From NCBI GenBank assembly GCA_025602905.1, contig JAHLKI010000048.1, positions 56,576 to 120,575 on the forward strand: a DNA stretch of 64,000 nucleotides. Direction: 5' to 3'. A program made the translations under genes and the position numbers. Numbering within the stretch: position 1 is the stretch's first letter; every line of letters starts with the position of its first letter. The stretch comes from Phlyctochytrium arcticum. Lineage: Eukaryota; Chytridiomycota; Chytridiomycetes; Chytridiales; Chytridiaceae. Below the pieces are notes generated by a model, which saw only the letters and a list, made by a program, of their open reading frames with translations, searched no databases and had not been told where the DNA came from. Shown piece by piece: positions 41,841 to 60,874 of this stretch.

Positions 41841-44800
41841 TCAGGGAGCAGAGGGACTAACTGTCAGAGGAACAACTTCGGATAGAGGAGGCACTTCCTT
41901 TGCCGGACCCTGCGAAATCGCCCGGTTATACCAAGCAATTCGCCCCTCGTCTGCCAGCACAGCGAACAGACCATTATCCGTGACTTCACCCCGGGAATGG
42001 AGACGTCGCTCTACGCGAAAAGAACTCCCGTAAGAAGAGGTTGACAAAAAGATAATGTCCTCTGCCGCAAGCCAATCGTCAACAATTCTCCGGCGTAAAA
42101 CACCCTCCTGACCATTGTGAATAATGTGCTGCGTTTCATCGACTGTGTATCCCTCATCCCAACATTCGATGTAATCGAAGTTATCCATGTGGTCCCAGGG
42201 CTCATGTCGGAATTCGTCATTCTCATCATGCACATCATCTTCATTGGGCGCGTCGCCCTCCTGCTGCGGTCCCTCATCATCGCCGTCTTCCTGCTGCTGG
42301 AGTTCCTCTGCGTCCGGTGAGCCACTCAGAGCAGTATCGGCAGCGGTATCTTGTACCCTTGCCACTGCGTCCGAGACGCTCCCCGGAGCGACTTGCGCTT
42401 CCCGCACTAACTTCCGGACATTGACCACGAGGGTGTCCCTTCAAGGGATTTTTGCATCGTTTGCAGCAACGTTGCTTCGGCGGAGCAGAGCCGGTGCCCA
42501 CCGTAGGTTCCGTTGCTGTGGCGCCGCTCTGCCCAATCACAGCTGCATTGGCAGGGTTGTTGGAAAGGGCAGTGACCAGCAACTGGAGCTGTTGGGCTTG
42601 CGTCTGGATTATTTGTTCCAGCTTACTGAGACGGCCAGCGGTAGACCGAGCGGTAGTACGCTGACGCTTGGCTGGCGGTTGAGATGCACTGGTTTGCGTG
42701 CGTCTTTCTGCCTCGGCTGCCTCGATTTGTTGGGTAGAGCGCTCTACGGCGATTGAATCGCGGCCTTCGACAGTTTGGGAGCGGGAGGGGCGATCAGATG
42801 CTCGACCAAGAACTGGGTAACGAACCCCATAGATTGCTGGGTCCATCTCGACATGGGGCAGGATCCAGTGAGGGTGAAAGTCTTCAAGCTCCAGTGGGAT
42901 ATGCGCAAACAACTGGTTTCGTGCTAGCTCATGCCGGCACGCGAATCCAAACACTGTACGGGTACTGCAATACCGCTGATTGCACTCTTCCAGCGGCAGT
43001 TGTTCTTCTTCACTTACTTTCAACAATCGTCTGGCTTCCCGCAACTCCAATGCCAACAGCCTTTGGCAATGTTGCGATATGTTCTTGTGGAGAGCCTTGA
43101 ACACCTCATCACTCAAAATACTGCCGTCCAAACTCCACGTACGGTCATGATTGAATGTGTCTTGAAGTCGCTGCAAATTGTACTCCATGCTGGATTTCAG
43201 CGCTTGGAACACATCTCGCAGAAGGGACATGGAGTTCGCCAGCCAGTTTTTGATCCCGGTATGATGACAGCCCTCACAGTCGGACGTGACTCGGCGATTA
43301 AAATGCGTCCTTTGGTCAACTAGATAGCTAGCCCAATGCCGCTTGAAGGGCAGCTTGTTCCGCTCCAGATAATCAATCGCCTCGGGTACATGGCTGGCAA
43401 TGGCGTTCAATTTTTCCCATTGCAGATTGAATTCAGACTCATTTTTCGCGTAAATCAGCTTTTGCCACACTTTGAAAAAATTGTCCCATTTTTCCTGCCA
43501 GGTCTCTTGGATGAGAAGGTGCATCAATTGGCTAGGCCTCCTGAAAAAGCTTTCTACAATGCTCAGTAACATTATTGTTTATGTGCCAGATACATAACAT
43601 AACCTGCATTTGATTACCGCGAGATCACGTTATTTGCATGACGCTTAATGCCCAGCGCACGAGAAATACCTGAACACCCTGGGATTCCCATCCCTCTTCC
43701 TCGGTTAGTACTTGATATAGCGCCTTGTCATGATCAACAGTCTAGAGCAAATAATGTATCATGATCACCAGGTTGTGTTTATCAATATTTCAAAACTTAC
43801 AACGACTTGTGGACGAAATGTCAAAAAAGTTTCTAATTTGCCAAGGGCCCAGCGGTAGTCCTCTTTATTCTCGGAAGGAATGAACACCACGGCGACCGTA
43901 AATACCTAGTAATCGTCATTAGAATACTGACTTTTCATTCGGGGAGATACCCTTAGCGTATCAAGTACCATGTTGGTTCCGGTCACTCCTACAACATGAA
44001 AAAGCTACAGGACAAAAGATTCAGTACTGGACTAACTTTCATCGGGAAACGCCTGTTACCTTGTACTGGGTCTTGTTGGTCTTATACGTACAGTCAAATA
44101 GAAGACCGACATTTGAATGATTTTGCGCCATCTCGCGCATTCCAGTGAATCCAACGAACAAACGACGCAACTCTAGGAAGCCATCTGCTTGTCCTGCAGA
44201 TCTTCTGAATACCACAGTTCGTTATTGGCGGAAGCCGTGTTCATTTCATAGCGCAGTTGTTCAATATCTGTGCGGCCTGCTCGGTATGACTTTCAGATGC
44301 TAGCACACAGCAGCAACTCAATTCAAGTAGACCTACCCTGGAATAAGTTCCGTTTCATAAGCTGCTTACGGTTCGAGATATCTTTCGGTTTCAGCAGACT
44401 CATCGGATTCGACCTTCTCAGCAAATCGATAATCTCCAGCGGTTTCTTACGCAAATTGATCAGATTTTCGATGTCGGCCACCAACTCGGGTGTATGTGTG
44501 AATCGGCGAGCCATCTGTAGTTCGATGAGCTCGCGCCAGGTACGACGGAAGTGCCCGCGATGAATAAGATGGGTAGCTTTTTCTTTCAATGTCCATGATG
44601 TTGTAGGCAGCCCCCCCTTCGATCCGCGGACGATCTCTAAGTGGAATATACACTCTTCGACCTGCTTTGTCCCCGTAATTCTTAACGGCGTAGTCTTGGG
44701 AGGCAGAGGAGAGGAAGCTGCCAGTTCACATTTGAAAGAAACCGATACATTGATCTTATATGTCCGTCGTTTCGAGATAGAGAATCCTTCGTTCATGGCC

Positions 44801-44903
44801 CACTGCTGGAGATCATGATATGCGGCATCCTGATCTTCCCAAGGACGCGGGGGGGGGGGGGGGGCAGCGGAAGATTAGGCTGCCAGGCGTCGTCGGCCGC
44901 CAT
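41841..44903 (-). pseudogene. Mutator-like (MULE) transposase, frame-broken
   Basis: Homology runs across several frames and short introns. The N-terminal FAR1-like region (MNEGFSISKRRTYKINVSV from 44796, LLKPKDISNRKQLMK) leads through a GT...AG intron to GRTDIEQLRYEM. The DDE core follows: LLFDCTYKTNKTQYKL (first Asp), VFTVAVVFIPSENKEDYRWAL, TVDHDKALYQVL (second Asp), then LCIWHINNNVTEHCRK. The C-terminal part (43572-42277) ends with a SWIM-like CSTRTVFGFACRH and a CCKRCKNPLKGHPRGQC zinc cluster, then an acidic tail in another frame to 41841. The frame jumps near 44180, 43545 and 42430 and at a G16 tract, so it is probably dead. Confidence 0.75.
44849..44864. repeat. G16 homopolymer (C16 in the coding sense)
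   Basis: A run of 16 G lies between a candidate transposase ATG (44903-44901) and the rest of its frame. With 16 bases the two are out of frame; 14 or 17 would join them. This is a likely slippage or sequencing-error site. Confidence 0.85.
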
Positions 44904-45034
44904 TAATAGGGTAGTGAAGTAGTAAAGGTGTTGTGTTGCGCGATTAAATAAAAGTTGTACAAGTTATATGTAACCCGACCCCCAAGGGTACGGGATCCAG
45001 AATATGTGAGGGCGTCAACCCCCCCGGAAAATGT

Positions 45035-45044
45035 CTATATAATA
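45035..45044 (-). promoter_or_regulatory. candidate TATA box of the MULE transposase
   Basis: TATTATATAG on the minus strand lies about 130 bp upstream of the candidate transposase ATG at 44903 and just downstream of the Fanzor stop. This suggests the two genes have separate transcripts. Confidence 0.45.
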
Positions 45045-45060
45045 CCCCGACTACTTCAAG

Positions 45061-47155
45061 CTATCTACCCCTCTGAAATGGAAGTGGCCGCACGCCAGTC
45101 TGCAGGAGAGCTCGAACTATGGTGGCCATATTGAGAGTACTGAGGCCGTCGCGGTTGTAGTATCGCATACGCTGCCCCACATTCCCATCCGCTGTCCAAT
45201 CCTGCTCTATACAATCTGGGTTGGTACAACCCAGCAGGCCGTGGACAGACTGATGGTGCCCTTGCGCTCGGCGCCAGGGCCGGGATGACAGGCGAGTCTT
45301 GATGTTTTTGATGACTAGAACTTGGAATTAATACTTGTTGGTCATCTCTCACAAACAATCAGACTTGCATACCTGGTTGATGACAACGACAGCACAACGC
45401 CGACGTCTTGAATTCGTCCAGGAGGAAACACTGAACGTGGTGCTGGCGAAATGTTTTTCTCGAACCAGCCGTCTTGCTTGATGTCTGGAACCTGGCGGTT
45501 CGCCCCGCATCGTCCCAGTCCCCCAAGACCACGACAAAGTTCTCGCCGAATTTGTCTCGCATCCGATTGATCAGCTCGGCCTCCGACTTTTGGGTGAATG
45601 AATGACAACGGAAGCGCGAGCGGCGGTGGAAGCGCCGATGGTAGAACGCCTGGAGCTCCTGCCGATGATTGGCCTGATATTCCAGATATTCGACGAATTG
45701 ATTCGTATTCATGGTCTTGTGGGTAGGAATTGCAGATTCCAGTGATTCTATGTCAGCATCCCTCCGCATCGACTGGGACGTCTTGCGTATGACCTTGGAC
45801 CTGGTTTCTTTGTTTCGCTGATTGGCAGTATACCGCATCGTTCCTCCGCCATGAACACCGCGACAAAATAGGATGTCCCTTTTGTTTGGGTCTATCACCA
45901 CGATGTTCGGCGCTTGTCCCAAAGTATCAAGATTTTGATCGCAGTAGGTAGCAGCAATTTCAGCTCTGATTGCTGCCTTTGACTTGCGCTTAGCTGAGGT
46001 ACCGTATTTGAATCCAGGCGTTTGAAGGTGGACCGAGACTGCATGCCCATCCGTGGCGATGGAGAAATCAAACTCGAGCCCGGTCGATTGCTGGGGCTGG
46101 AAGACTCTTGATTCCAGCCGGAAACAGTTGCTCCATAGGTCGTACTTTCGGTTGCCCTCCCTTAGTACGCCTGTCTGCTTGCGAGTCAAACACAATATAC
46201 TCTTGGCCAGTATCGTTGTGTCAATTCGAATCGATGATTGAATATGAGACTTTCGCAAGGGAATCGCCGTGAATGATGGGTATTGGTACTGTTCGTACAG
46301 CTCTGCCAGCTTGCAATACGACTGGAGGTAGTGTAGTGGCTCTACCACGACATCTAAAGCAATGCCGTCTGCACTCTCTATCGCTCTTCGAGGCAGGATC
46401 GACCAGATTTCGTCAAGAATGGCTGCTTCTTCAACGGGCAACCCATCCAATTCCTCCTCGGTCGGAACAGTGTCGAAAGTAGCAATGCTTTTAAGCCATC
46501 GTACACGTTGATAGAAGGCTGGCAATAACTCCCGTTGATTCGTGATTTTGAGATGCTGCACCCGTTCTTTCACATCAAGACGCCGATTCAGGAATCGCAA
46601 GAGCATTTTGTAGTAATTCTGCTGAATGTTGACTCTCAAGTTGGTGAAAATACTCTTGCCCACATAGTGGGAAGGCTGCTGGTCATCCTTCATTTGTGGC
46701 TGGTGGAAATTGGCCAAAGCGCTGTAAATGGGAATGGTGTCAATATAACGGTTTTTGATCGCGACCATCTCCGGTGCTGTGGGATTGTATGCGTTGCCTT
46801 TGTTGAGCAACTGGAAGATGGCGTACATGTCTTCGGCCTTGGGAGGTTCCAGAGACACGTCATGCAGGTGCTGAGTGTAGAAGAACCGGAGAAATTGTGT
46901 TGTGTGAGAAGCTAGCTCGTGCACCGTCTTGATGAAAGATAACAGCCGCTGTAAGTAGATGGGCGCAAGGGGATGCTGATGGTTGAAAATTCTTGCAAGC
47001 AAAATCTTGCGGGCGGATTGGCGGGGGTTTGGGCCGGCGTTTGCAAAAGATTCAGGTAGAGGAGTAGGATTTCCAGGAGGGTTTGGTGGCTTTTTCTTGC
47101 GTTTCGGGCCGGTGGGGACCCCAGAAGTACACTGTCTCTTCGTTTTTGGTGGCAT
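45061..47155 (-). CDS. Fanzor, eukaryotic TnpB-like RNA-guided endonuclease
   Basis: Fanzors are nuclear OMEGA-type nucleases related to TnpB and Cas12; studied members cut DNA guided by an omega-RNA that overlaps or follows the gene's 3' end. Exon 1 is 47155-45373, intron 45372-45315 (GTATGC donor, TTCTAG acceptor; CCAAG at 45321 is an in-frame alternative), exon 2 is 45314-45061; 678 residues. The start MPPKTKRQ is chosen because a TATA box lies at 47383-47392, downstream of the earlier in-frame Met (47482). Residues 1-30 carry a basic NLS (GPKRKKKPP). Catalytic features: RuvC-I Asp422 (VVIDPNKRD); RuvC-II block VVVLGDWDD (545-547 GDW) with no Glu there, but Glu581 in LLDEFKTSALCCRC; zinc ligands C588/C591 and C624/C629 (GCTNPDC); RuvC-III Asp650 (YYNRDGLSTLN). 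The frame is intact throughout. Confidence 0.93.
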
Positions 47156-47382
47156 TGTGTGTATGTATGTGCGATGCGAGAATTGGAAATCAGTATATTT
47201 GGAAGGAGGACATCTAAAAAGACCAATCAAAAAGAGAGGATTAGGCGTTTGTTGTTGCCGATGAGCGATGTTGAAGAAACTGACCAAAGAAGTAAATTCG
47301 GGTACGATCGGTTGCAACGCGAATAGTCTTTGTCGAAAAAAAGGATGGGGGAAAGCAGCGGGGGGACTTGGCGACGGGCTGC

Positions 47383-47392
47383 TTATATATGC
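47383..47392 (-). promoter_or_regulatory. TATA box of the Fanzor gene
   Basis: CATATATAAG on the minus strand, about 230 bp upstream of the chosen Fanzor ATG (47155). It argues against translation from the upstream Met at 47482. Confidence 0.6.
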
Positions 47393-47482
47393 AAAACGCC
47401 AGCACGCCGCCATGTCGCAGTGCGTGCGGGTTCTAAACCGCCATTTTTCCCACAGATCTAGCTCCTCCTTCCCGCGCCACAC

Positions 47483-48049
47483 ACACCTGCTCCGTCGGGT
47501 CCCGCCCTGGCTCGACGGATTGTGTGGATATTTCTAGGAGTGCGCATGTACGAAAATAAACTTTCTTATTCATTGCCTGGGGGCATTTACATGCTGTCGT
47601 TCACATGCAATGCAGAATTGCAGGCTATGTGATAGACTTTTAAATTCCGAGTAAAAAACGCGATGGCTGGTGCGTCGGCAGAAATTCAAAAATCGAAAGT
47701 TGCGTTTGGAGGCCAGGCATTCAATGAGCGCCATCTCATTCACTAGATGTAGACAGAAAAGGGCGACGACATTCGAATCCTAGATGAGCGACACAAGACA
47801 ATGCATGGACAGCGCCTCAATATGTCTGTAGATCTACAAATAAGCCTGCAAAGGATGGGCAGTTTTGGTCTGAATTCCAAGCTAGTTCTGTAAGTTAGCT
47901 TTACTATATATACCACCTGATACAGAGTGAATATACTATTGACATGATTGCTTAAGAGAGTTCTGCATATGTGTAGCTTTGTGGTTATCGCTGTGAGGAA
48001 GTTATCGCTGTAAGAAAATAGTCTGGGAAAGCGTATGAGCATTTCGATC
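47483..48049. other. gene-free region upstream of Fanzor
   Basis: About 570 bp without a recognisable gene. If the Fanzor-MULE pair forms one element, its right end should lie here or somewhat further right. No TIR matching the left side was found by eye. Confidence 0.35.
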
Positions 48050-48661
48050 TCAGCTCTTGGTAAGTAACCTCACCCTCAGTTGTTCAGATTTGATCTTCAG
48101 TACCGATTCAATGATGGAGAACTCATCAGTCAACCCGACACTGAGCACTTTGTGTACTTTCATCAAGAATTTGCGACCTCTTGGGATCCGTTCGATGTAG
48201 ATGTCCTCGTGTATAACCCCCATCCATGACATCCGATCTATAAGGTCGACAACGAGGGCTTGTGTGAGAGATGTTGTGGGTAGCAAGCTGAGAAGAGCAT
48301 CCAAGTCGGTCCATTTGATTTGCCGCAAGTTTTCCATGGTCTTGCTCCGGCAGAAGATTTCTTTGAGCATTACGGGCGTTGTCATCCTCATCATTAACGA
48401 CCAACACCGACTCCTCCCGTACGGCGTTATCTTAATATCTTTGGTCTTGGTGGATGCCCAACGGGCCTTGGCGGCTTGCTTTTTGGTCATCTTGAGGACT
48501 TTAGACGACTGTCGCGTAGTATCAATTTTGAGTTTGGGAAGCCTTGTTGCTGGTATTGAGTTGCTTGCGAAGCATTCGTCCGTTCGCGCAGAACCCGCGG
48601 ACCACGTTGAGTGCCCATCGCAAGCAATGGAATCGTAGTGAATAGAGTTCCGTGATGACAA
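48050..48661 (-). CDS. unrecognised ORF, 203 residues
   Basis: An open frame starts MSSRNSIHYDSIACDGHS and contains a basic stretch KMTKKQAAKARWASTKTKD and a helical-looking C-terminal half (WTDLDALLSLLPTTSLTQAL; HKVLSVGLTDEFSIIESVL). No domain is recognised. It sits between Fanzor and a gene-poor tract, so it may be an extra cargo gene or a transposon remnant. Low-complexity arguments against it are weak, but evidence for it is only ORF length. Confidence 0.35.
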   Translation of the reverse strand: MSSRNSIHYDSIACDGHSTWSAGSARTDECFASNSIPATRLPKLKIDTTRQSSKVLKMTKKQAAKARWASTKTKDIKITPYGRSRCWSLMMRMTTPVMLKEIFCRSKTMENLRQIKWTDLDALLSLLPTTSLTQALVVDLIDRMSWMGVIHEDIYIERIPRGRKFLMKVHKVLSVGLTDEFSIIESVLKIKSEQLRVRLLTKS

Positions 48662-48699
48662 TAAACAATAGATATACGATACGAAGGAAAGCTTGCTGT

Positions 48700-50100
48700 G
48701 GCAGATGGTGGAGCTTCTTTTTCATCCCAGCTAGTAAAAGTGAAAGAGCCAGAAAAAGTAAATTGGAAAAGAGAAACAGAGGTAGTGAAGAGAAACAGTC
48801 AAAGTACCGTGAAAGGAAGAAAAAAATAAAAGAGTCTCAAATAGGGATTAAAAGATAAGAGGAAGCAAGCATTTAGACAGATCTGCCTGACTCTACATAC
48901 GAATCCTGAGTACAGGAATGGGTATCCAAACGCATAAGGTGAGGAATATGCCCAAAGGACAGCATAGTAAGAGTGGGAACAAAACAATACGCGACCAAAG
49001 TCTTGTGAATCTGCAAACAGCTGCGTTTTTTGGGGATAGGAACAAAGGACAGAAGAGAAAAGGTGGAAACAAAATACCGGTAACACGCAGGGGTTCACCT
49101 GCCAGACAGACGGAGCAGATGTATAAAACGGGCAAAGTTGGAAACAAAGCATGGCGCTACAGGAGTAACAACAGTACGGACAGCATCTGTCCCGCAGACA
49201 GGAAATGAAGCAAAACATGAGCGCACACAGGAAGTATGGCCAGATTTGGCAGACTGCTCAGACGGAGTGCATCAAGATGGAACACGTCGAAAGAAGTTGA
49301 GTGTGCGGCAGACGCGAAAAGGACAGGAAAGGCAAAGAAGGGGAAACGAAGTAATCGGCGGTCAGCAAATGGGTAGAAGCCTGTGAGAAAGAAGAAATAG
49401 CTAAGAAAGCAGTAATGTTGGATCATCAAATGTATACAGGACTGCTGGACTGCCAGGCAGGAGAACCCAAATGTGTAAAAAAGGAGCAGTAGGAAGCAAG
49501 ACAATAGACAGATACATCGTACATCCTCATCCCGAGTACGGATAAGCACAAAAAACAGGAAGGGAAGAGTGAGAACTGAAGATGAGTAACAGCCCTAAAA
49601 AGTCAAAGTCCGGAAAACAGATGGAGCATGTAAATAGGACGAAGATTAGAAAGAAAGGTTGGCTGCAGAAAGTCAGATCTCGAGACAAAAAGAAGCTGTA
49701 GCTACGTTGTACGGACAGATCATGCAGAAAGGCAGGAGAGCCCAGAACAGAACCAGGTCCAAGGTCTTGGGACATTGTGGTAGGCTTTAAGAAAGGATTA
49801 TAGGACCAAATAGATCGTAGACAGGAGCCAGGCAAAGAAAATGGAAGTATAGGGGAGTAAGTAGATGAACGTACTGGAAAACATAAAGCTACAGTCATGA
49901 GAAGATTTGGCCAAACGAAAGGCGGAAAGAATGAAAATACGAAGAAATGTACGTCTTACATTGGACATATATTCGGAAAGGACAGACAGGATGGGACACA
50001 ATTGGAAGAGAACTGAAAGGGAGGGCGCGAAAGACATGAGGTCAGAAAGGATACCCAAGGCACCCAAGCAGACAAAAAGACTGACATGACAGAACCCTGG
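48700..50100. repeat. purine-rich low-complexity tract
   Basis: About 1.4 kb whose plus strand is strongly A+G-rich with recurring GGAAACAAA, ACAGGA and AGAAAGG-type words. No gene can be supported; the pyrimidine-rich minus strand yields only low-complexity Phe/Ser/Leu/Cys ORFs. Confidence 0.6.
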
Positions 50101-50396
50101 CCGTTTTTTTAAAACTGAACCAATAGGGCGTACTAATTTGTACACAGATTGGGACCCTCCCCTCCAATCCTTTCCCATGCGACTTGGTCATTAGGTAGGC
50201 ATCATCTCCAAAGACATCATCTTATGGGTGCAAATGGAGTTGGCCTGGACGGAACTTCTATTTTGCTGCATCCTAGTCAAAGCGGACGTGGATAGTATGC
50301 ACAAAAACTGCGCGCGATAGTTATGGAATCGTGGGAACTTTTCATAGTAGTAGGTTAGCCAATGCAGCGGGTTAGAGCGATAAATGTCTTCTACAA

Positions 50397-51060
50397 CTAT
50401 TTTTGTCCGACATATAAAATGATACAAGGATTTTGGGTGCCTACTACGAAAATCATTTTTTTGGGTCTATCTCCAATTTCAATGCATTCATGGATTATAT
50501 TCAACCCATTTACATTGTACCTTTCCTCCTCGCTGATCAGCCAATCGAATTGATTGGCAAAGAGGGGATCACTACAGACAAACCATTTGTCAAGCAAGTC
50601 AATTTCTTCTTCTTCTTCTTAGTCTGAAGTCTGAGTATAAGAGCATGAACGTGGGAAGATCAAAAAATATGTGAAAGGCTCATCCAGGACAACGAGGGTA
50701 GTGGGGCCCCGTTCATGGGACCTGGCGGGAAGTTAAAGCTCGTCCGGATTGCCAGACTCGACCACAGGCGGGAGCAGTCAGCTACAGGTACAAAACCGTT
50801 GTAGACCTTTGCAGTGCGGCGCATGGCTGTCATGAGGTAGATCTCGCTTGCTTGGGCACCTGCTCCACACACCACATGCTAACAACTTGGCTTCCATTTG
50901 ACACCAAAGAACTACGTACCATGTTGCCCTTGGCATATGAATCGCCTGCCAGTTTGATGCCAGACCCAACGTTTCCATCCGCTGTATGCCTCATGGGGAA
51001 TGCGTCAAGAAATGTCTGAAATGGTCATGGCTCAATTTGACGTTGGTACCTTGGAAGTGA
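50397..51060 (-). pseudogene. coding-like remnants, family unrecognised
   Basis: Two stretches look coding but are isolated. At 50625-50397 the frame reads EEEEIDLLDKWFVCSDPLF then WLISEEERYNVNGLNIIHE and stops. At about 51025-50660 a frame FLDAFPMRHTADGNVGSGIK continues through a possible GTACGT...TTAG intron into VVCGAGAQASEIYLMTAMRR. I cannot name either family. They lie in the mobile-element-rich part and may be fragments. Confidence 0.25.
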
Positions 51061-51507
51061 CGGGAAAGGGAGGCATGCTGGATACTGTGAGGAACCCCAG
51101 GAAGGCATGTGTCATCGGTCTAAGCATGTCCGAGGCTCGGCGAAGCGATGTCAGCCATCGTCAATGTTTAAATTCCTGAGCAGGAAATTCCAACCATCAA
51201 ACACGCCAACTACATGACCGCAGTGATATGCTCTTGGCGAAACTCAAGGATGCTTTTCTAAAAGACCTTTCCCTTGGACGTACAATGATGGACATCCTTG
51301 AACATGAAAACATCCGCAAATCTAGGACGCGTCACGTCGTGCGAATCTCGCTTTTGACGGGTCAAACATCAAACAAAGGGTGTTATGAGCACGATGAGAA
51401 GTATCATGTGTTATCATATCAAGCATCAGACCAGTTGTTATAGATTTGGAGACGCGTATAAGAAGAAACAAAAACTAAGTTATTCGACCTGCAACAGCCT
51501 TTTGATC

Positions 51508-51928
51508 TTACAACGTAGGGGAATGGACTTTGACAACAGCTGAGAGATGAGGGAGACATGGATAGCGAGCTTCAACAACAGGGAGGCGAGATTCACGAGA
51601 ATCAAACAACAGGGAGGCGAGGCCCGCGAGCTTGGACAACAGGAAGACGGAGTTCGCGAGCAACACCCATGGGGCGGGGAAGGGGTGGTTCCCGAACTTC
51701 GGGTCCGAGAGCTTTGACAATATTACCTGAACGAGGAAGAAGGGGCTCGGGAGCTTCGACAACAGGAAGACGGGGCTCGCGAGCTTCGACAATAGGAAGA
51801 CGGGGCACGCGAGCTTCGACAGCAGCAAGACGGGGCTTGCGAGCCTGCAGGCCCGCAGTACCAGTAGAGAGAGCCGACGTAGCCGAAACGGTCAAAGCAG
51901 CGACACAGATGGTAGGTGCGATCTTCAT
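51508..51928 (-). CDS. secreted 10-residue-repeat protein, frameshift near its end
   Basis: The ATG at 51928 opens a classic signal peptide, MKIAPTICVAALTVSATSALS. After the predicted cleavage site the protein is built of degenerate 10-residue units of the type RLPVVEAREP, encoded by a 30-bp minisatellite (clearest at 51725-51850). A TATAAAAG box lies 78 bp upstream (52006-52013). The frame stops at TGA (51602), yet the same repeat continues in the next frame to 51508 (SRLPVVEARYP). One extra T in the repeat (GTTGTTTGATT versus GTTGTTGAAGC) explains the shift, so either a recent mutation or a sequencing error shortened it. Function unknown. Confidence 0.55.
51725..51850. repeat. 30-bp minisatellite
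   Basis: Three near-perfect and further degenerate copies of a 30-bp unit (core GAGCTTCGACAACAGGAAGA on plus). The period is a multiple of three, so repeat-number change keeps the reading frame. Confidence 0.8.
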
Positions 51929-52005
51929 CTTGAAATACGATGTATCGAAAAAAGGAAGAGGGGATTTCGTTGAAGATAGCAGGGACAGGAGCTATCGAAC
52001 ACCTG

Positions 52006-52013
52006 CTTTTATA
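52006..52013 (-). promoter_or_regulatory. TATA box of the secreted repeat protein
   Basis: A consensus TATAAAAG on the minus strand, 78 bp upstream of the ATG at 51928. It supports the minus strand as the coding strand of the minisatellite. Confidence 0.6.
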
Positions 52014-52139
52014 CTCATTTTGCCACTTGTTGCGGGATATTGTCAAAATGACGGAGTACTGTCAAAATGCTCGCCATCTAGGCTATGAGCACCGGTCAAA
52101 ATCGTCAAGGGTGTCAAAATTGTCAACGGTCGTGGTCTA

Positions 52140-53072
52140 AATTTGGTAACCTTGGTCTAAGATCGTAAAGTAAAGCAGACAGTCGGACTTGAATTGAAGT
52201 TGACTGATGCGTATGAAATGCAACTGTAAAAGGCTAATTATGATGGATGCGAAACAAACACATCGCAAATGTTGCGGCCCTTTGGCTGCTGTCATCTGGA
52301 CGGGAGAGTGCGGTTACATCTGCAAGATCCACGCGGTAGTAACCGCTGAAGCAACATCTATACGCAAACGTCCGGAGTTTGAACGTGGGAGCAACAATAT
52401 GCCATGTATGAATTATCAGCACTAAAAAAATGACCCGTTCAGTTATATTGGAGGATATGCTGATAAGCTCCGAAGGAATTGACCTGAAAGCGTGGGAATC
52501 TTCCCGGATTTGATTGGAGAACCAGCCTTCTTCCATCAGGATGTTTGACCTCGGTGCCCCATTGTTCGCAGTTGTTGTTGAATGATACGGACAGCATTCA
52601 CGAGCGTATGGGAAGTGCCATCATCGACTAAACGGATTGATGACTTGGATGAAGGTTTATAGCGTTTCCTGGGGTGGTAACTACTCAAAGAGTCCTGGGA
52701 GGGAATTATTTAAACGTCCCAAGAGGGAGATCCCCACCTACACAAACCCCACGCTGGGATGTAACCCGGAAATTCTGCTGAAGCCTGGGCATGGTTGGAA
52801 CCAAAATTCTACCTCGCCCGAGACACAGCGCTTCGGGCGAGGTACAATTTTGCGGGGACTCTCCATGCTGCTCTCCATGTCATCTATTTGGGTGCGTATC
52901 GGGCGAAGTAAAATGCGTGTGGTTCGATCCAACAACGCGTCCTCCGCAAGAATATACGCACCCGGATTTCCAGAGAATTTCCCACCAATTGCTCGCCGTA
53001 ACCTCCATTGGTACACACCCATTCATAGGGAGAAAAATCATGATATTACTATTAAATAAAAGTAGGTAACAG
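52140..53072. other. gene-poor region with coding-like fragments
   Basis: Short minus-strand stretches (SSIRLVDDGTSHTLVNAVRI near 52620; MEEGWFSNQIREDSHAF at 52536) look coding but cannot be joined into a gene. A MITE-like hairpin is listed separately. No other feature seen. Confidence 0.3.
52801..52853. repeat. MITE-like inverted repeat
   Basis: Left arm CCAAAATTCTACCTCGCCCGA and right arm TCGGGCGAGGTACAATTTTGC are near-perfect reverse complements (two mismatches) around an 11-nt spacer. A third related copy, TCGGGCGAAGTAAAATGC, follows near 52897-52914. Confidence 0.7.
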
Positions 53073-54115
53073 CTAGGTAGATAAAGTCCCGCTATGCGAA
53101 GAGAAAGTCCAGTTAATCTGCGATTCCTCGGTCACAAAAGTTTGCAATCTCTCAATGAACTGAAGGAGACGCTCGGTTGCCAACGGATCACCTTCTGTCA
53201 CCTTGTCTTCAAGTCGAAAATAATGGTTAAGCAGCCTTTCATCGGCCTCTTTCACCTGTCGCTTCCTGTAATCTCTGTAGATATCGACGGGGCTGACTTC
53301 CTCTCTTTCCACAGGTACCCGAGAAATCGTTTCATAAACCTCGAAACCGCACTCGTCAAACATTTGCGCATATCGATCCCAAACCTCGTCGGTCAAAATT
53401 GGCTCCTCTGCGAATAGGTTAGCATGAAAAGCATGCTTGCAGGGCAACAAATACTGTCTGCCAAAGAGGCAATTGCACTCAAGGGTATCGTAATCAGGGG
53501 CCAGCTTTCCTTTGACGACTCGGTTTTCTACCGAGTTGTACTGTTCGATCAAGAGGCGCTGAACAGGCAGTGGGAAGCGACCTATGTTAGGGTGATCTTC
53601 AGTATCCTTCAATACCTTTGATTTGAACAAAACTTCGGGACGATCTGCCTCCAGGCGGCGCTGTATGTTGACTTTGGACAAACCACACACGCTTTTTGAA
53701 TACTTGAGAATTTGCCACAGTTTCTGTCTGCTTTGACTAGTCGATGATAAGATTCTAATGGATTTGTTGAAGTCATCTGTAGCAGGGTGGGAGAATGTTG
53801 ACGCGCGGCCATTGTCCAGCAATCCAGCACAGCAGGATTTGCCCAATAACTTTCCAAATAGTTTCCAAGCTTTTCTGGAGCATCGGTAATGGCCTCTCGT
53901 AGCAACGCCGTGGCACCGACCATGGTCGTTTTGTTTAGTGCCTGCAGCATTTTGGCATATGTAGGTTTGTGGGTAGCTAGGCGACGCATGAGAGTGCGGG
54001 CGACATGGACCTAGGATAATACAAAATCTGGGGATGCGTTCTTGCGCTCAAATTAGAACGTTACCTTGCAATATCGAACTTTAACTTCCTCCTCTCCTGC
54101 GTACATTCCCGGGAA
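53073..54115 (-). pseudogene. second MULE transposase, C-terminal half, cut by LTR element
   Basis: The minus strand reads GEEEVKVRYCK, a 54-bp intron (54064-54011), then VHVARTLMRRLATHK, YLESYWANPAVLDCW and TSTNPLESYHRLVKA, typical of the region after the MULE catalytic core. Homology then moves to another frame near 53745 (SRQKLWQILKYSK) and continues to a SWIM zinc finger (LECNCLFGRQYLLPCKHAFH) and the end at 53073. The N-terminal two thirds, with the DDE core, are missing because the chromovirus LTR starts at 54116. It differs in sequence from the MULE near Fanzor, so it is a separate family. Confidence 0.75.
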
Positions 54116-54351
54116 TGCAGCGGGCTCGTGGTTCGCTGCGCATTGTCCGCACCACTGCGCAAACAGCGCAGTGCCGTGCCACATCACACGTGTTGTTTTG
54201 TTTTTCTTTTTGTATATCCCATCCTGCACTGTACATTTTCAGACTCTTTACGCTTTCTCTTTACTCTGCGCTAAAGCAATACACAACCCGACTCACGCAC
54301 CCTGGGAAGGTGCATTACCGTCCATACCACTTTTTACCCGAAAACGCTACA
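54116..54351 (+). repeat. 5' LTR
   Basis: 236 bp that start TGCAGC and end GCTACA (TG...CA ends). Identical by eye to the 3' LTR. Confidence 0.93.
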
Positions 54352-54366
54352 TGGTAGCACCACCCC
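54352..54366 (+). other. primer binding site
   Basis: TGGTAGCACCACCCC starts at the base after the 5' LTR. TGGTAGC is complementary to the usual 3' end of initiator tRNA-Met (GCUACCA), the common primer of this group; the longer match depends on this species' tRNA. Confidence 0.65.
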
Positions 54367-54474
54367 ATCAGCAATCCTACTAGCCTCAAACCGTCCGTTT
54401 ACCCTTTCGACTCGACCTTTCGCTTCTACCTCTTTCGCTTCTTTTACTTCTTTCTACTCTTTGTTCCGTTCAAC

Positions 54475-55875
54475 ATGGGTTCTGGACAAAAGCAGGCTGT
54501 GGCGCGCAAGACCAAAAGCAAAGGCAAGCCGAGTGAAGAGGGCCCCGTCTCTAGTACTATAGAGAGCGGACCTCCTCTCCTGGGTGAAGACCAAACTGAG
54601 GCTGGAGAGATCGGCCAGCATTCTGAGACATCCTCCATTGCTGGAGAAAGAGATGCTCAGGAGACTGGTTCGACCAGCACAGACAACCATGCGGGAGGCG
54701 TCGTACCCATGATGGTCGACGAAGAGCCCCCGAGAGACGTGGTTAGGCCCTCTGAGGGACCTACGGGGATGACTGGTGTTTCCCTCTCGGGTAATGCCAC
54801 CCCCGCGGCGTCCGCTCTTGGAGGAGCCATCGCTGACGTCGCGGACAAGCAACAGCTTACGGCAATTCTCACATCCTTGACGGAGGAGATTGCTTCGCTC
54901 AAAGCTGACGTGGCCGCTCGCGATGGCAATGGCCAACAAGGAAACTTGTTTGATTCAATGCAAAACAAGTCACTCCAGCGCAAAGCTGAAAATGCCATGT
55001 TCTCGGGAGAGGGTAGTGACGTTGCGTCACACAAGAAGATCCGTGACTTCTTGGATAAGCATTATGCTTTCCTTGACCATTCTCCCGCCAACGAGGACCA
55101 GCGCGCGGGGCGATCGTTCGTGGATTACATGGAACGCGCCCTTGAGGGAACAGCCAAGGACTGGTTTTCCTCCATGACCCTGGCCGAGAGACCCGCAAAC
55201 CGGGAGGAGTTTGAAGCGAAGCTCAGGGAGCGCTTCGAGCCACGAAACCCGCGGGACGCCATTTTGGCCAGGCTCCGTCAGCTCACGTGCCGAAATTACT
55301 CGGCCTATATCTCCGCCTTCAACAGGATCACTGGCGAATTGAGAACCACCAGCACCGCCCGTAGCCCCATTGACGAAGATCAGATGCGACGCTACTTTCG
55401 TGACGGACTGGAACGGGGAGGGGAATTTTGGAGTCGCCTGATGCAGGCTGTTTTCGGAATGCATCCCGACGCCAACCTCACCCAGATCCAAACGGCTACC
55501 ACCCAAACCCTCCAAGCGTGGGGATGCGACAATGACGGGGTCTATGTCCCTGTCGCGGGTGGAACCGGAAAAGGCAAGGGTCCCGCCTCCGTGCCGGCTG
55601 CCAATAATGGCCCGGCGAAGAACGGTGGTGGAAAGAGTCCCAAAGCCAACGTCTCTGCGGCAAATGGCAAAACCCACAACCATGGTAAGCCCTATGCTTA
55701 CCAAGGGCGTGGAGCCAACGCTGGAGCCAGCGGATCCGGGTCAAGTTCATCTCCCGGACTTCGCAAAAACAACCAGCAGGCCGAGTCAGACCGCATCTGG
55801 TGCTACTGCTGCGGTAGTGGCGACCATTGGTCTGCCAGATGTCCCAATGCCAAACGCCGCGATCCAAAAAACTAG
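54475..55875 (+). CDS. gag: Gag capsid/nucleocapsid polyprotein of chromovirus
   Basis: A 466-residue structural protein that forms the virus-like particle and packages element RNA. An acidic, low-complexity N-terminus is followed by a retrotransposon-gag capsid region (about 165-275; FVDYMERALEGTAKDWF, FEAKLRERFEPRNPRD). A Gly/Lys/Asn-rich linker leads to one zinc knuckle C-x2-C-x4-H-x4-C (CYCCGSGDHWSARC, about 442-455). The last codons CCA AAA AAC TAG form the frameshift site into pol. Confidence 0.92.
   Translation: MGSGQKQAVARKTKSKGKPSEEGPVSSTIESGPPLLGEDQTEAGEIGQHSETSSIAGERDAQETGSTSTDNHAGGVVPMMVDEEPPRDVVRPSEGPTGMTGVSLSGNATPAASALGGAIADVADKQQLTAILTSLTEEIASLKADVAARDGNGQQGNLFDSMQNKSLQRKAENAMFSGEGSDVASHKKIRDFLDKHYAFLDHSPANEDQRAGRSFVDYMERALEGTAKDWFSSMTLAERPANREEFEAKLRERFEPRNPRDAILARLRQLTCRNYSAYISAFNRITGELRTTSTARSPIDEDQMRRYFRDGLERGGEFWSRLMQAVFGMHPDANLTQIQTATTQTLQAWGCDNDGVYVPVAGGTGKGKGPASVPAANNGPAKNGGGKSPKANVSAANGKTHNHGKPYAYQGRGANAGASGSGSSSSPGLRKNNQQAESDRIWCYCCGSGDHWSARCPNAKRRDPKN
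55866..55872 (+). promoter_or_regulatory. -1 ribosomal frameshift slippery heptamer
   Basis: A AAA AAC in the gag frame, directly followed by the gag TAG (55873-55875). A -1 slip gives KK then LDPASNN, exactly the pol frame, which overlaps gag from 55827. Confidence 0.85.
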
Positions 55876-58800
55876 ATCCGGCAAGCAATAACGACACAGG
55901 TCGTTTGCCGCAGGATGGTTCGGTCAGATTAGATAATCCTTTTGTTTTTAATAACTTTTCTAATTCAAATACAACCGTATCCATCAATACTGTGTCCACT
56001 TTTACATTTACCGAAGAAGTTCAGTCCTCGAGTCCACAATCACAAGCTACGCAACGAGGAGATACACGATCGGAGGTCAAGGAATCATCAAAACCGATGC
56101 AGCCGTCTGGCGTTGTTCGGGTTGCACCGATTGGAGGTTCCTTGGATGAAGATCGTTATGCTCCACGCCGTGTTGCTTGTGGACCTGAACCGGTAATTGC
56201 TCAAAATGCCTTTGTCGTTCATGCGAAGTTGAATGGCAAGATGGCCCGTATTCTTGTCGACACCGGGTGCGATACCCTGATGATCAACGACAAGTGGGTC
56301 AGGCAACATAAGTTCCCAACCTATCAACCCAGCTCTACTATCGAAGTAGAATGGGGAGACGACGGAGAAACCTTCAAGTCGAATCGAATGATGCTAGGAG
56401 CCCTGGACCTCTACTGCGATCACAACAAATGTTCCTTCGGTGAGCTACCGTTCATTGTTGCGCCATTACGCGTAGATGCCATTGTGGGACTACCTTTCAT
56501 TCTCGGCCTTGAAGGACTCCAGATTGACAAGGTTGATGAACGTCCTCGCATGTCTTTCATGTTTGAAGGCGTTCGTCGCCTATGCGAAGCAAGACCGGTT
56601 TCACGAAAACGTGAGCAACAACCATCCTGCAATGCTGCCCACTTACGTGCGTTTGACTGCAATCTCGACTCGCCTCGCCTTCAATCACCTCTCGCCTCGG
56701 TCAAGGACGTCAAGACCCACCTCAAGGCTGAAAAATTTCTCCGAGCGATGCGAAAGAAGGAGTTCACATCAGTTTTTGCAGTCAATGTCAACGTACTCCA
56801 GTGGATAGATGGCAACGGACATATCCGCGAGGCACCGGCCTCCGCGCGAGTTACCGCGGCTGCAAGTACAAGTAGTACCGACAGCGCGGCCAATGGACAA
56901 AAAGCTCCGGACGAAGATCCGCTAGCGTCCATTCCGGAAGACAATCCGTTACTGCCAATCTTACGAAAGTTCAAGAAGACAGTTTTCACAGAGCTACGCA
57001 CGTTACCACCTTCTCGGGGCGAAGACGACTTCAAAATTGAAATCGACGGCGTAGAAAGACCTCTGTCGGTGCCCTTGCGTGCAATGGGCCCGAAGGAACT
57101 GGAAGAACTTCAACGGCAAATTACAACGTTGCTTGCCAAAGGGTGGATTCGACACTCGTCCAGCCCGTGGGGTGCAGCAGTTCTCTTTGCGCCAAAGAAA
57201 GACGGCACTCTTCGTTGTTGTATCGACTACCGAGGGTTGAATAAACAAACGAAAAAAGACCGAACACCTTTGCCGCATCTTGGAGAATTGCGACACCGCA
57301 CCGTTGGCAAGAAATACTTCTCCTCTCTTGACATTAAGGAGGCCTATCACTGCGTTCGGATTCGCGAAGGTGATATCCAGAAGACGGCTTTCAAGACGCG
57401 TTTTGGACATTTCGAGTATGTTGTCATGCCATTTGGGTTGACTAATGCACCCGCAACGTTCCAACGCATCATGAACAAAGTCTTCGGGAACATGTACGAC
57501 GACTATGTTATCTCGTACCTTGACGATATCCTCGTTTTTTCAGATACGCTTGAAGAACATCAAAAGCACGTCGAAACTGTTTTGGCAACTCTTGAATCAA
57601 GCGCTCTGTACGTCAAACCATCCAAATGCTCGTGGGCAGTACAGGAGGTTGAATTTTGCGGTCATATGTTGGGAACATCCGGTGTGCGAATCTCGGACAG
57701 CAAAGTTGCTGCCGTGAACAATTTCGCCACTCCCAAGAACTTCAAAGATATTCAATCCTTCCTCGGTTTGACGAATTACTTGTCATCTTACATTGACGAG
57801 TACGCAAGGATCGCGCATCCCCTATCGGAGCTACAGTCTGGCAATAACCCGTGGAAATGGGGCGATGCGGAGATATCAGCGTTTAAAACACTGAAAGAAA
57901 AAATCTCAACGGCTCCTGTTTTGACGCCGTACGATCCTGCCAAAGAAGTCTATGTGTTTTCGGACGCATCCGGCTTCGCCATCGGTGGATGGCTTGCTCA
58001 GCCAGTTGACGCAGACGACCCCATGCCCTCTCCGTTACCTACGACGGTACATGGATTCAAAAACCTGCCCAAACTGCGACCGGTCTTGTATTTTTCCCGA
58101 AAATTACAAGATGCGGAGACACGGTACCCGGTCCACGAACAGGAACTCCTCGCCCTCGTCAAAACGTTGAAAGCCAACCGACAGTTCCTTTTGGGACGCC
58201 ATTTCCGCGCGTTCGTCGATCACAAATCTCTGATCTATTTACAGGATCAGCAGCATTTGAGTCGACGACAAGCGAATTGGGTCGAGTTCCTTCAACAATT
58301 TGACTTTGACATTGAGTATCTCCCTGGCGAATGGAACACGGTGGCCGATGTCCTGAGCCGAAACCCCTATTATGCCCCGCAATGTGCTGATTGCGCCCAG
58401 CGTGTTACGATCAACGCCATCGCCGTGCATTCCGCCAGCACTCCGAGCGACAAGTCTAATCTTGTTGTGTCGGTCAACGCTGCGCGTGCCAAGAAACGTG
58501 CCAAGAAGCAACTTGCACAGGCAACACAACAACTCGAGCTCCCCGTTGACCTGACGGTTTGGGCCGAATTGTTGCTTACAGACGACTTCGCTCTTCAAAT
58601 GCAAAAGACACTTGAAGACAAGGCATCGGCGCCGCACACCTTGACGGTCCCTGAACGGCGTTATTCCGTGGAAGTCCTTCCGGAGAAAAGCAAAAACGGT
58701 GAAACCCTCACCTTGCTCCGTTACGAAGATCGCCTGTATGTACCCGATGCCCTCCGAAGTGCATTGCTCGCGCAATATCACGATACGTTGGTTACGGGTG

Positions 58801-60191
58801 GCCACACTGGTAAACATTCGACATATGGTCGTCTGCTGCAAGAATACCATTGGCCGACTATGGAACGCGACGTTGCAGCTTATGTTCGCACATGTGCAAC
58901 TTGTCAACGCTTCCGAAGTCCCGCACGAGGTGTCGGACTATTACGCTCGCTCCCAGTGCCTGATAAGCGCTGGCACACCATCGGCATGGATCTAGTCTCA
59001 CTACCTAGGACGGAATCGTGGGGGGGGAAACCTAGCCATAACGGCGACTACTACGATGCCGCCCTGGTCATAGTCGACTATCTGTCAGGACGTGTGTACC
59101 TCATCCCTTGCAACATGGAGGTTTCGAGTCAAGAGCTTGCGTATCTCTTCACCCAGCACTTCTTCAAGAACGAAGGTGCTCCCAAGGTCATTGTCAGCGA
59201 TCGCGACAGCCGCATCTTAGCCGAATTTTGGCAATCTTTTACCGCTGCTCTCGGTATCAAGTTAGAGGTGGCGACCGCTCGACATCAGCAGACAGACGGC
59301 AAATGCGAACGCAAAATCAAGTCTGTCAAAAACGTGCTGAAGGCCTACATAGACGGCGATGGCAAGAACTGGGTTGATATCCTACCCTTGGTTGAGTTTC
59401 ACCACAACTCAACACCATCAAATACCGGCTATGCCCCGTTCATGATCGACAAAGGCCGCCTCCCACAGGTCAATGGTGGACACCATACCAGGGAAGGTCT
59501 GCAGGAGATATCACAGCCAACAAATCGGCAAGTAGCCAAGTTTGTTGATACCCTCCATGAGATCGAACGGGTGGTACAACAACGGTTACGCGATGCACAA
59601 GATGTGCAAGCAAGGAACCATGACAAGGGTCGGCGGACGCTCATCTTCGAGAAGGGCGATTCAGTTTTACTCAAACGCAAAGGGATCCACATTCCAGCTT
59701 TGGGTAAGCTTCCGGAGAAACTTCGCCAGGATTGGCTTGGTCCATTCAAGGTCAAAGGAACCGGACCGCACCCTGATACCTACACGCTGGAACTACCTCA
59801 TCCAATGCGTATGGTACATCCGACATTTCATGTCGACATTCTGAAGCCGTGGCACAAACCTGGCTCTATGACCCATCGTGCCACGAAGGATGCGCCGGAG
59901 CCTGTGCTGGTCAACAGCGAGGAACTTTGGCTCATCGACCGTATTCTGGACGAGCGGATCCGTCACAAGAAGCGGAAATACTTGGTTCAATGGGAAGGCT
60001 TCGGGCCAGAGGACTCAACTTGGGAACCGCGGGAACACCTTGAGCAAACCGACGCGCTGAAAGCATGGGAACTAGCACGCCCCTCAGCACCCAAGAGTTC
60101 AAAGCGAAAGAAAGCCCAAAACGAAGCATCGGCAACTGACATTTCGTCTACAGCCGAGCCCCCATCGAAACGTTCACAACGCAAACGCTAG
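55872..60191 (+). CDS. pol: Pol polyprotein: protease, RT, RNase H, integrase, chromodomain
   Basis: The pol frame is open from 55827 and entered by -1 slippage at about 55872. Positions counted from 55827: aspartic protease LVDTGCDTLM near 144; reverse transcriptase 400-590 with LRCCIDYRGLNK and active site YLDDILVF near 563; RNase H with VYVFSDASG near 711; integrase zinc finger H-H-C-C about 985-1030; catalytic DDE with Asp near 1053 (IGMDLVSLP), Asp near 1123 (VSDRDSR), Glu near 1160 (GKCERKIK); and a chromodomain about 1370-1415 (IDRILDERIRHKKRKYLVQW). Chromodomains of this group direct integration to marked chromatin. The C-terminus is basic. All active-site residues are present and no stop interrupts the frame. 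Confidence 0.93.
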   Translation, partial: LDPASNNDTGRLPQDGSVRLDNPFVFNNFSNSNTTVSINTVSTFTFTEEVQSSSPQSQATQRGDTRSEVKESSKPMQPSGVVRVAPIGGSLDEDRYAPRRVACGPEPVIAQNAFVVHAKLNGKMARILVDTGCDTLMINDKWVRQHKFPTYQPSSTIEVEWGDDGETFKSNRMMLGALDLYCDHNKCSFGELPFIVAPLRVDAIVGLPFILGLEGLQIDKVDERPRMSFMFEGVRRLCEARPVSRKREQQPSCNAAHLRAFDCNLDSPRLQSPLASVKDVKTHLKAEKFLRAMRKKEFTSVFAVNVNVLQWIDGNGHIREAPASARVTAAASTSSTDSAANGQKAPDEDPLASIPEDNPLLPILRKFKKTVFTELRTLPPSRGEDDFKIEIDGVERPLSVPLRAMGPKELEELQRQITTLLAKGWIRHSSSPWGAAVLFAPKKDGTLRCCIDYRGLNKQTKKDRTPLPHLGELRHRTVGKKYFSSLDIKEAYHCVRIREGDIQKTAFKTRFGHFEYVVMPFGLTNAPATFQRIMNKVFGNMYDDYVISYLDDILVFSDTLEEHQKHVETVLATLESSALYVKPSKCSWAVQEVEFCGHMLGTSGVRISDSKVAAVNNFATPKNFKDIQSFLGLTNYLSSYIDEYARIAHPLSELQSGNNPWKWGDAEISAFKTLKEKISTAPVLTPYDPAKEVYVFSDASGFAIGGWLAQPVDADDPMPSPLPTTVHGFKNLPKLRPVLYFSRKLQDAETRYPVHEQELLALVKTLKANRQFLLGRHFRAFVDHKSLIYLQDQQHLSRRQANWVEFLQQFDFDIEYLPGEWNTVADVLSRNPYYAPQCADCAQRVTINAIAVHSASTPSDKSNLVVSVNAARAKKRAKKQLAQATQQLELPVDLTVWAELLLTDDFALQMQKTLEDKASAPHTLTVPERRYSVEVLPEKSKNGETLTLLRYEDRLYVPDALRSALLAQYHDTLVTGGHTGKHSTYGRLLQEYHWPTMERDVAAYVRTCATCQRFRSPARGVGLLRSLPVPDKRWHTIGMDLVSLPRTESWGGKPSHNGDYYDAALVIVDYLSGRVYLIPCNMEVSSQELAYLFTQHFFKNEGAPKVIVSDRDSRILAEFWQSFTAALGIKLEVATARHQQTDGKCERKIKSVKNVLKAYIDGDGKNWVDILPLVEFHHNSTPSNTGYAPFMIDKGRLPQVNGGHHTREGLQEISQPTNRQVAKFVDTLHEIERVVQQRLRDAQDVQARNHDKGRRTLIFEKGDSVLLKRKGIHIPALGKLPEKLRQDWLGPFKVKGTGPHPDTYTLELPHPMRMVHPTFHVDILKPWHKPGSMTHRATKDAPEPVLVNSEELWLIDRILDERIRHKKRKYLVQWEGFGPEDSTWEPREHLEQTDALKAWELARPSAPKSSKRKKAQNEASATDISSTAEPPSKRSQRKR

Positions 60192-60866
60192 TGACGTCAA
60201 GGAAGATGTGTTTCATATTCAAAGTATCACATTCTCAATGAGAGAATACCGCATGACTGCTATCAAAGCAACGAGTGTCCTCTTGCAACACTTCACGTCA
60301 TTCATTACTATTCGGGACCTCCCATCCCATATCTTGATACTACCTACGCGCGCGCACCATCTCAACACTTTGAGACCCACATCCAAGGTTGCTCCTTGCT
60401 GACGACGCGTCTCGCACGTCAGAACTCCGGTAGGCCTGATCAGCCTGAGCTGAGTTGATGCATCATCTATGCATAGGTGATGAGAGGCCGGGGAAACATT
60501 TATCTCCGTCATTACGCGTAATTTCCTTCAACGCAAGGAAACACATCCTTACCTTCGTACCTGTGCGAACATGCGCACACGGTTGTTGCACAATCTGCAA
60601 CGAGAGTCTCGGGGAAGCTGCAAGTAGCAGCTATTCATGCCTGTGACAACAGTGAAATTGACTTGGAGGTGATCCAACACAATTCAGGTGACCAAACGTC
60701 TGGCGTTGTTCGGTTTGTTCACTTGCACCGCTGGCTTCTATACACGTCTGGCGTGTTCGGTGTATAGTTGCCCGGTGAGGTTGTGCTGGTGACCTGATAC
60801 TTCAATCTTTCTGCTGACACACGAACCCTGATCTGAAGCCTCGCTCCTCTTTCCAGCATCGAGTCT
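60192..60866 (+). other. chromovirus 3' untranslated region
   Basis: About 675 bp between the pol stop and the polypurine tract. It has no ORF with recognisable homology. Short imperfect repeats (CTGGCGTTGTTCGG and CTGGCGTGTTCGG near 60700-60750) are present. Confidence 0.6.
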
Positions 60867-60874
60867 GAGGGGGG
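60867..60874 (+). other. polypurine tract
   Basis: GAGGGGGG ends at the base before the 3' LTR and is the expected plus-strand primer for reverse transcription. Confidence 0.75.

Follow-up and report, generated by a model that had tools for sequence, protein, structure and literature searches.

Fanzors are eukaryotic RNA-guided nucleases that are of interest for genome editing, and several of them have been solved structurally. Of these, SpuFz1 from the chytrid Spizellomyces punctatus (PDB 8GKH, 9CEU-9CEZ) is the one closest in sequence to the gene analyzed here. According to the sections of PMC10432273 that describe this system, a 75-nt scaffold lies between the SpuFz1 stop codon and the 3' end, and flanking DNA provides a guide of 14 to 15 nt. 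SPu-1 has inverted repeats of 30-33 bp and a TA duplication. For the two other solved proteins considered, PpFz1 from Parasitella parasitica and GtFz1 from Guillardia theta, the parts of the literature that deal with them mention an additional RuvC insertion in PpFz1 and an Asn in place of the third Asp in GtFz1. A different element structure is described in the relevant portions of Bao and Jurka 2013 (PMC3627910) for Mucor circinelloides MCi-2, in which the 3' regions with Fanzor are nearly identical, the 5' regions differ, inverted repeats are lacking and TSDs of 11-12 bp occur. The same portions describe Chlamydomonas CRe-1/2/3, Fanzor1 elements of the Helitron2 type, as keeping their 3' end, being truncated at the 5' end, bearing TSDs mainly on truncated copies and containing captured DNA.

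Phlyctochytrium arcticum provides a second chytrid genome beside that of the best-studied SpuFz1 host; it contains recent copies and several diverged subfamilies whose 3' ends can be read, and its TSDs reveal pre-insertion sites. With it, one can ask experimentally by what means Fanzor1 elements devoid of inverted repeats are moved, and whether the DNA bordering the 3' end guides the nuclease against the site that the element left. A literature search for texts naming both Phlyctochytrium arcticum and Fanzor found none; the supplementary tables of Fanzor surveys, which lie outside such a search, may list the gene.

A Fanzor1 gene of the SpuFz1 group

The window, by which we mean the whole stretch of 64,000 nt that was analyzed (contig JAHLKI010000048.1), contains on its minus strand a frame running from an ATG at 47155 to a stop at 45061 and encoding a product of 678 residues. 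The sequence-only reading had described this two-exon open frame without naming a strand, and its coordinates were confirmed. The gene has the following parts, the domain names in exon 1 being assigned by analogy with SpuFz1:

45373..47155, minus strand: Fanzor1 exon 1, residues 1-594 plus one base, with a K/R-rich N terminus, REC, WED, most of RuvC and the first Cys pair
45315..45372, minus strand: intron, GT-AG, phase 1, 58 nt, within the zinc ribbon
45061..45314, minus strand: Fanzor1 exon 2 with the stop, containing the second Cys pair, RuvC-III Asp650 and the C terminus
45890..45892, minus strand: codon of RuvC-I Asp422 (SpuFz1 D383)
45413..45415, minus strand: codon of RuvC-II Glu581 (SpuFz1 E541)
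45148..45150, minus strand: codon of RuvC-III Asp650 (SpuFz1 D606)

That this gene encodes a Fanzor1 is practically certain. It matched the PDB sequences of SpuFz1 (1.6e-156), PpFz1 (1e-39) and GtFz1 (4e-5), the RuvC triad D422, E581 and D650 aligns with SpuFz1 D383, E541 and D606, and C588, C591, C624 and C629 align with SpuFz1 C548, C551, C586 and C591, giving a C4 finger between RuvC-II and RuvC-III. All seven residues are found at the positions previously claimed for them, and these matches together with the aligned triad and zinc cysteines bear out the proposed Fanzor identity. Identity to SpuFz1 is 47% across 589 aligned residues, and the two proteins share their metal residues, zinc residues and fold; in both cases, the 3' end region directly follows the stop codon. 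Unlike SpuFz1, however, the window gene has a 58-nt intron, its product is 40 residues longer, and two of the six TAM contacts are different (R96 to T126 and N133 to H163). PpFz1 and GtFz1 have the same fold and RuvC arrangement at structural alignment identities of 25-26% and 18%, respectively. Structure prediction, which had been proposed as a check, gave a consistent answer: an AF2 model of the public gene version, which is 18 residues shorter, has a pLDDT of 77.2, and its best PDB structure matches are all Fanzor1. The homology search proposed alongside it succeeded in one respect, since solved Fanzor1 proteins were matched, but not in the other, as Pfam and NCBIfam searches with the gene returned no relevant match. 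Related proteins were found in S. punctatus and Gaertneriomyces. The nuclease belongs to the SpuFz1 group of Fanzor1 enzymes, a kind already known; it is the element's mode of movement that looks unusual.

The intron has the donor CAG/GTATGC and the acceptor TTCTAG/ and, judging from comparison with relatives, is probably spliced. With exon 2 included, phmmer scored 525 instead of 438 bits against SpuFz1, and the match extended across the zinc ribbon to the C terminus, in agreement with the earlier proposal that this exon completes the catalytic domain; by this comparison, exon 2 behaves as coding sequence. The 58-nt intron also scored higher than the unspliced frame against 8/8 relatives. A 52-nt variant was ahead for SpuFz1 only (489 versus 485 bits) and behind for the other seven relatives. 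The public model DFS34DRAFT_639215 places the acceptor at 45261, and the resulting 112-nt intron removes 18 zinc-ribbon residues that are present in SpuFz1, in Gaertneriomyces and in family B of the same genome (defined below). We rejected this 112-nt intron, which scored below the 58-nt intron for all eight relatives, and the P. arcticum data thus cast doubt on a public gene model that lacks 18 conserved residues. As the sequence-only reading had it, the two Cys pairs flank the intron. The intron is identical at 58/58 positions across the five sister copies compared, and four more distant frames of the same genome (L016, L019, L020 and L022) are uninterrupted at this position, so that family A, to which the window copy belongs, probably gained it.

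Copies, element ends and upstream DNA

A search of the genome (31.5 Mb, 91 contigs) with exon 1 gave 63 matches, some of which are pieces of one gene. Six copies have exon-1 products that are 99-100% identical and form family A: C48 (the window copy), C17, C6, C27, C44 and C1. At the DNA level, C17 is 95% identical and the others are more than 99% identical, which points to a recent spread; six near-identical copies together with many diverged ones also argue that the frame did not arise by chance. Three further families were distinguished, namely, B (L015-L018 and L021), C (L023, L024, L025 and L028) and D (L019, L020, L022 and L026). In family B, three copies comprise a unit of about 3,145 bp, whereas L015 is truncated at the 5' end and the similarity of L021 ends inside the gene. 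In family C, the element around the Fanzor1 gene measures about 2.2 kb and has imperfect inverted repeats; L023 is 33% identical to the window protein, and a 9-bp TSD was recognized by eye in L028, as in MULE-type Fanzor elements. Relatives without Fanzor also exist and recall the S. punctatus "ghost" loci: C34:170549-174230 (L030) has only the upstream part of family A, and at C20:328678-328706 a 3' end of family B has no Fanzor match with it.

Around the gene, the element comprises the following features:

44958..44963, minus strand: element 3' terminus CTTGTA, conserved; the TA is possibly the target's
47156..49660, minus strand: element DNA upstream of the gene, common to the six Fanzor copies (in two pieces in C17)
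52890..54118, minus strand: 3' part of a MULE, apparently captured; its inner part is also in C1 and another part is in C6 and C44

The 3' end is fixed. In family A, the copies have in common about 103 nt after the stop codon and then reach the same endpoint, with C17 being 83% identical there. The ends of families A and B, recognized by comparing copies, and those of family D, read from the sequence after the stop codon, terminate in CTTG, and the next two bases are TA in 13 of 14 copies (AA in C27), a count that omits L021, which has no 3' end, and family C, which has different ends. A hairpin is predicted within the last 46 nt in 7/7 representative A, B and D ends, although in another register in C17. 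The family A 3' end was found six times in the genome, once per copy and never inverted.

The 5' side varies. Family A 5' ends, known for C1, C27 and C44 only, lie at window position 53855 in C1, at 51830 in C27 (in a tandem array) and about 310 bp past 54118 in C44, and C6 extends at least 1.3 kb past 54118. Down to 47488, the upstream DNA is also present in the Fanzor-less copy C34. The 5' side of the window copy is cut off by a Ty3/gypsy element at 54116-61110. This element has gag, protease, RT, RNase H, integrase and a chromodomain, adjoins the MULE piece and is recent, as its two 236-bp LTRs are identical.

Exact TSDs of 9, 12 and 12 bp, each beginning with TA and repeating the 3' flank at the 5' side, are present in 3 of the 14 copies (C1, TATAATCCC; L015, TACAATTAGAAT; L019, TAGAGGAATAAA). 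Those of C1 and L015 sit exactly at a 5' breakpoint known independently; at control flank positions, an 11-bp match occurred in 1/1400 and a 9-bp match in 39/1400. The remaining 11 copies showed no TSD; among the six family A copies only C1 has one (9 bp), and the three full-length family-B copies have none beyond the TA. An empty-site search with the 3' flanks of C48 and C17 found each of these two flanks once in the genome. When units were compared end to end for inverted repeats, 56-213 of 300 shuffles did as well as the A, B and D units, whereas for family C, the positive control, only 1 and 9 of 300 did. No terminal inverted repeat of the SPu-1 type (about 30 bp) was detected in the A, B and D units, family A being represented by copies whose 5' ends are not proven to be complete, and there was no 9-mer inverted match between the 3' end and window positions 49400-53000. 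In contrast to SPu-1, the window element thus has no detectable inverted repeats and a variable 5' end.

Some 965 bp from the 3' portion of an unrelated MULE lie inside the C1 TSD, which indicates that the Fanzor element took up upstream DNA and moved it. Elsewhere in the genome, this MULE is represented by nine copies of 99% identity, by a further piece, the tenth, next to C6, and by 14 copies of about 75% identity; its own 3' end is at about 52890. The Pfam MULE transposase domain was found in the C6 piece (7e-10) and was not found in the window's own piece (52890-54118).

Among the described elements, the one from P. arcticum is like Mucor MCi-2 in its near-identical Fanzor 3' regions, its differing 5' regions and its lack of inverted repeats. 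However, the TSDs of MCi-2 are ATAATTNNNN(N), while those in P. arcticum are TA-initial and 9-12 bp long, and MCi-2A carries a partial Crypton gene instead of a MULE piece. With CRe-1/2/3 it shares the kept 3' end, 5' truncation, TSDs mainly on truncated copies and captured DNA. In the accounts of CRe-1/2/3 consulted in PMC3627910, those elements have ends in common with known Helitrons and are inserted after TTTT, whereas the P. arcticum element is joined to TA, and our pattern search turned up no Helitron with such an end.

Several other observations concern the surroundings of the element. Blocks at about 48700-50200 of the window have 65-88% identity to a dispersed repeat, perhaps an old LTR, that occurs at roughly 15-20 genomic loci. 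A 579-bp block (50641-51220) is present in the window copy and C34 and absent, with the same joint, from C1 and C27. GGCATAT, which contains the SpuFz1 TAM CATA, is located 7-15 bp ahead of the 5' joint in C1, C44 and C27 and was not seen in the family-B flanks that were printed out. Transposase-like frames on the minus strand (42277-44874) adjoin the Fanzor 3' end, and 44039-44221 has a weak Pfam match, under the cut-off, to a ZSWIM RNase H-like domain.

Candidate omega RNA, guide and TAM

By its position, the DNA downstream of the gene may encode an omega RNA:

44958..45060, minus strand: candidate omega-RNA scaffold, from the stop to the element 3' end, 103 nt, positioned as in SpuFz1
44943..44957, minus strand: candidate guide, 15 nt of flanking host DNA, proposed from SpuFz1; this flank occurs once in the genome

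Two hairpins are predicted in the candidate scaffold, at about 45008-45023 and 44974-44994. When 76 nt of the window 3' region were folded, they were no more stable than shuffles (z of -0.74), and neither C17 (0.87) nor three family-D regions (-1.03, -1.93 and -0.84) went clearly beyond shuffles. The family-B 3' region, on the other hand, folds far better than shuffles (z of -5.45). In the four D sequences, the stem-loop directly after the stop shows changes on both sides in 4/9 pairs, a count reached by 3/500 shuffles, and slid versions of this stem-loop have at most two such changes. Its count of further pair types was not unusual, being reached by 121/500 shuffles. This covariation concerns the ungapped 26-nt stem-loop only, and the structure came from folds of three of the same four sequences. 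An alignment of seven 3' regions was poor except in stem-loop 1 and at the end. The D-type 3'-end pattern occurs at four places in the genome, each directly after a Fanzor match, and the reversed control gave 0. An Rfam search of the 3' region returned no match. On this evidence, an omega RNA is likely for the Fanzor group and putative for the window copy.

The bases preceding the TSD-defined joints are CATA in C1, as in the SpuFz1 TAM, TATA in L015 and AATA in L019. SpuFz1 R96, which contacts the C, corresponds to T or S in families A and B and to R in L019, where the base is A; residue and base are thus uncorrelated.

Mobilization of the element and state of the window copy

We favor, with a probability of about 0.85, the reading that the locus encodes a Fanzor1 of the SpuFz1 group with an omega RNA, carried as cargo by a 3'-anchored element that has no detectable terminal inverted repeats and is mobilized in trans by a one-ended process. 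The gene structure as a frame, homology, active site, predicted fold, structure of the copies, fixed 3' end and three TSDs are the observations underlying it. If the gene is expressed and spliced, the protein would bind an omega RNA derived from the 103 nt between the stop codon and the element 3' end, with flanking host DNA as the guide, and its single RuvC site would cut double-stranded DNA beside a short motif. The 3' end, hairpin plus CTTG, would be joined to TA targets while the 5' end varied, and new copies would arise by a one-ended, DNA-level process with an enzyme supplied in trans. That all six copies retain the intron unspliced speaks against a spliced RNA intermediate and for such DNA-level copying. 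The role of the nuclease and omega RNA would most likely be to cut DNA matching the guide, such as a site that an element has left, and so to promote repair from a copy. For TnpB, a cut at the vacated site that promotes repair from a copy is the proposed role.

As to the mobilizing enzyme, the kept intron, PF14529 matches that all fall under the cut-off and abundant Helitron domains make a Helitron2-like one-ended process our leading guess. Its specific form, a non-autonomous Helitron2-like element mobilized by the genome's own Helitron proteins as proposed for Chlamydomonas CRe-1/2/3, is a real possibility, albeit short of an even chance. The fixed 3' end with its predicted hairpin, the capture of upstream DNA, and TSDs that accompany the truncated copies C1 and L015 but, apart from TA, not the three full-length copies of family B follow the pattern that the Helitron2 passages of Bao and Jurka 2013 (PMC3627910) describe, and the genome has 101 Helitron_like_N matches, some of them pieces. 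However, when family B was inspected by eye, neither asymmetric terminal inverted repeats nor a 5' hairpin could be recognized, inverted repeats in the 100 bp next to the ends did not exceed chance, and a genome search with the 3'-end pattern identified no Helitron with the same end. That search for an enzyme with matching ends gave 32 matches versus 33 in the control, 11 being Fanzor-type ends and 21 non-Fanzor. The latter include two identical pairs of hairpin-plus-CTTG matches (C2:1307199/C5:1193235 and C31:72994/C62:24538), perhaps the ends of other repeats. A fixed 3' end, 5' truncation and TSDs of 9-12 bp would also be produced by target-primed reverse transcription with a LINE-type enzyme acting in trans, and C6 has a small tandem duplication at its 3' end; yet the copies retain the intron, the full-length family-B copies have no TSD beyond TA, and none of the four PF14529 endonuclease matches was above the cut-off (in a search that covered this one LINE domain), so we consider this origin unlikely. 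A MULE-type unit is less probable still and would be surprising. It is suggested by the MULE piece upstream of the gene and by the MULE-like family C, with its imperfect inverted repeat and 9-bp TSD in L028, but nine additional copies of the MULE lie apart from the family A Fanzor copies and have a 3' end of their own, the Fanzor 3' end never occurs inverted, and C1 has no inverted repeat. Around the Fanzor unit, we found no inverted repeat and a 9-bp TSD in only 1/6 family A copies. Two other routes were rejected: guide-directed homing, in which a guided cut is repaired from the element, predicts the same 3' flank, while the six family A flanks differ beyond TA; and segmental duplication is ruled out for C1 and L015, and for these two only, by truncated 5' ends with exact TSDs at the breakpoint.

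A bolder extension of the favored 3'-anchored reading, which we regard as speculative and rather improbable, is that the omega-RNA-coding 3' terminus is the sole end needed to move, with hairpin and CTTG serving as both scaffold end and origin of one-ended transposition. It is equally tentative that this terminus would itself join TA targets, make the TA-initial duplications of 9-12 bp and carry off upstream DNA. If true, 3'-anchored movement, observed in algal, mucoralean and chytrid elements alike, would be a general mode of Fanzor1 transposition and no peculiarity of host transposons.

Whether the window copy still works is a separate question. Compared with family B (56% amino acid identity, 582 codons), exon 1 differs at codon positions 1/2/3 by 0.318/0.270/0.646 and at 107/151 fourfold sites; differences are twice as frequent at third positions as at either of the other two, so the lineage has been selected for its protein sequence. 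Between copies, once the three sites private to the window copy are excluded, 17 codon differences are nonsynonymous (one a stop) and 12 synonymous, and single copies look little constrained. The earlier description of the gene as intact holds for the frame but not for residues 52, 438 and 565, which differ from all five sister copies, 52 and 565 being conserved in relatives: L52 is Ser in 12/12 homologs that have a residue there, and S565 is Trp in 12/15, Phe in 2 and Ser in 1. These private changes, together with a stop in C6, a frameshift in C1, indels in exon 2 of C17 and changes at conserved sites in sister copies, make it conceivable, though not the account we prefer, that within a true Fanzor1 family the window copy is a decaying, inactive relic whose frame is open by chance. 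Against this, the frame is open, all catalytic and zinc residues are kept, most copies are more than 99% identical and hence recent, and one homolog also has Ser at 565. From such comparisons, the chances that the window copy is active are about even. That it is a domesticated host gene untied from any transposon is hardly credible: the open frame and the constraint relative to family B would fit, but there are six close copies, one with a TSD and captured DNA, and the sister copies have decayed.
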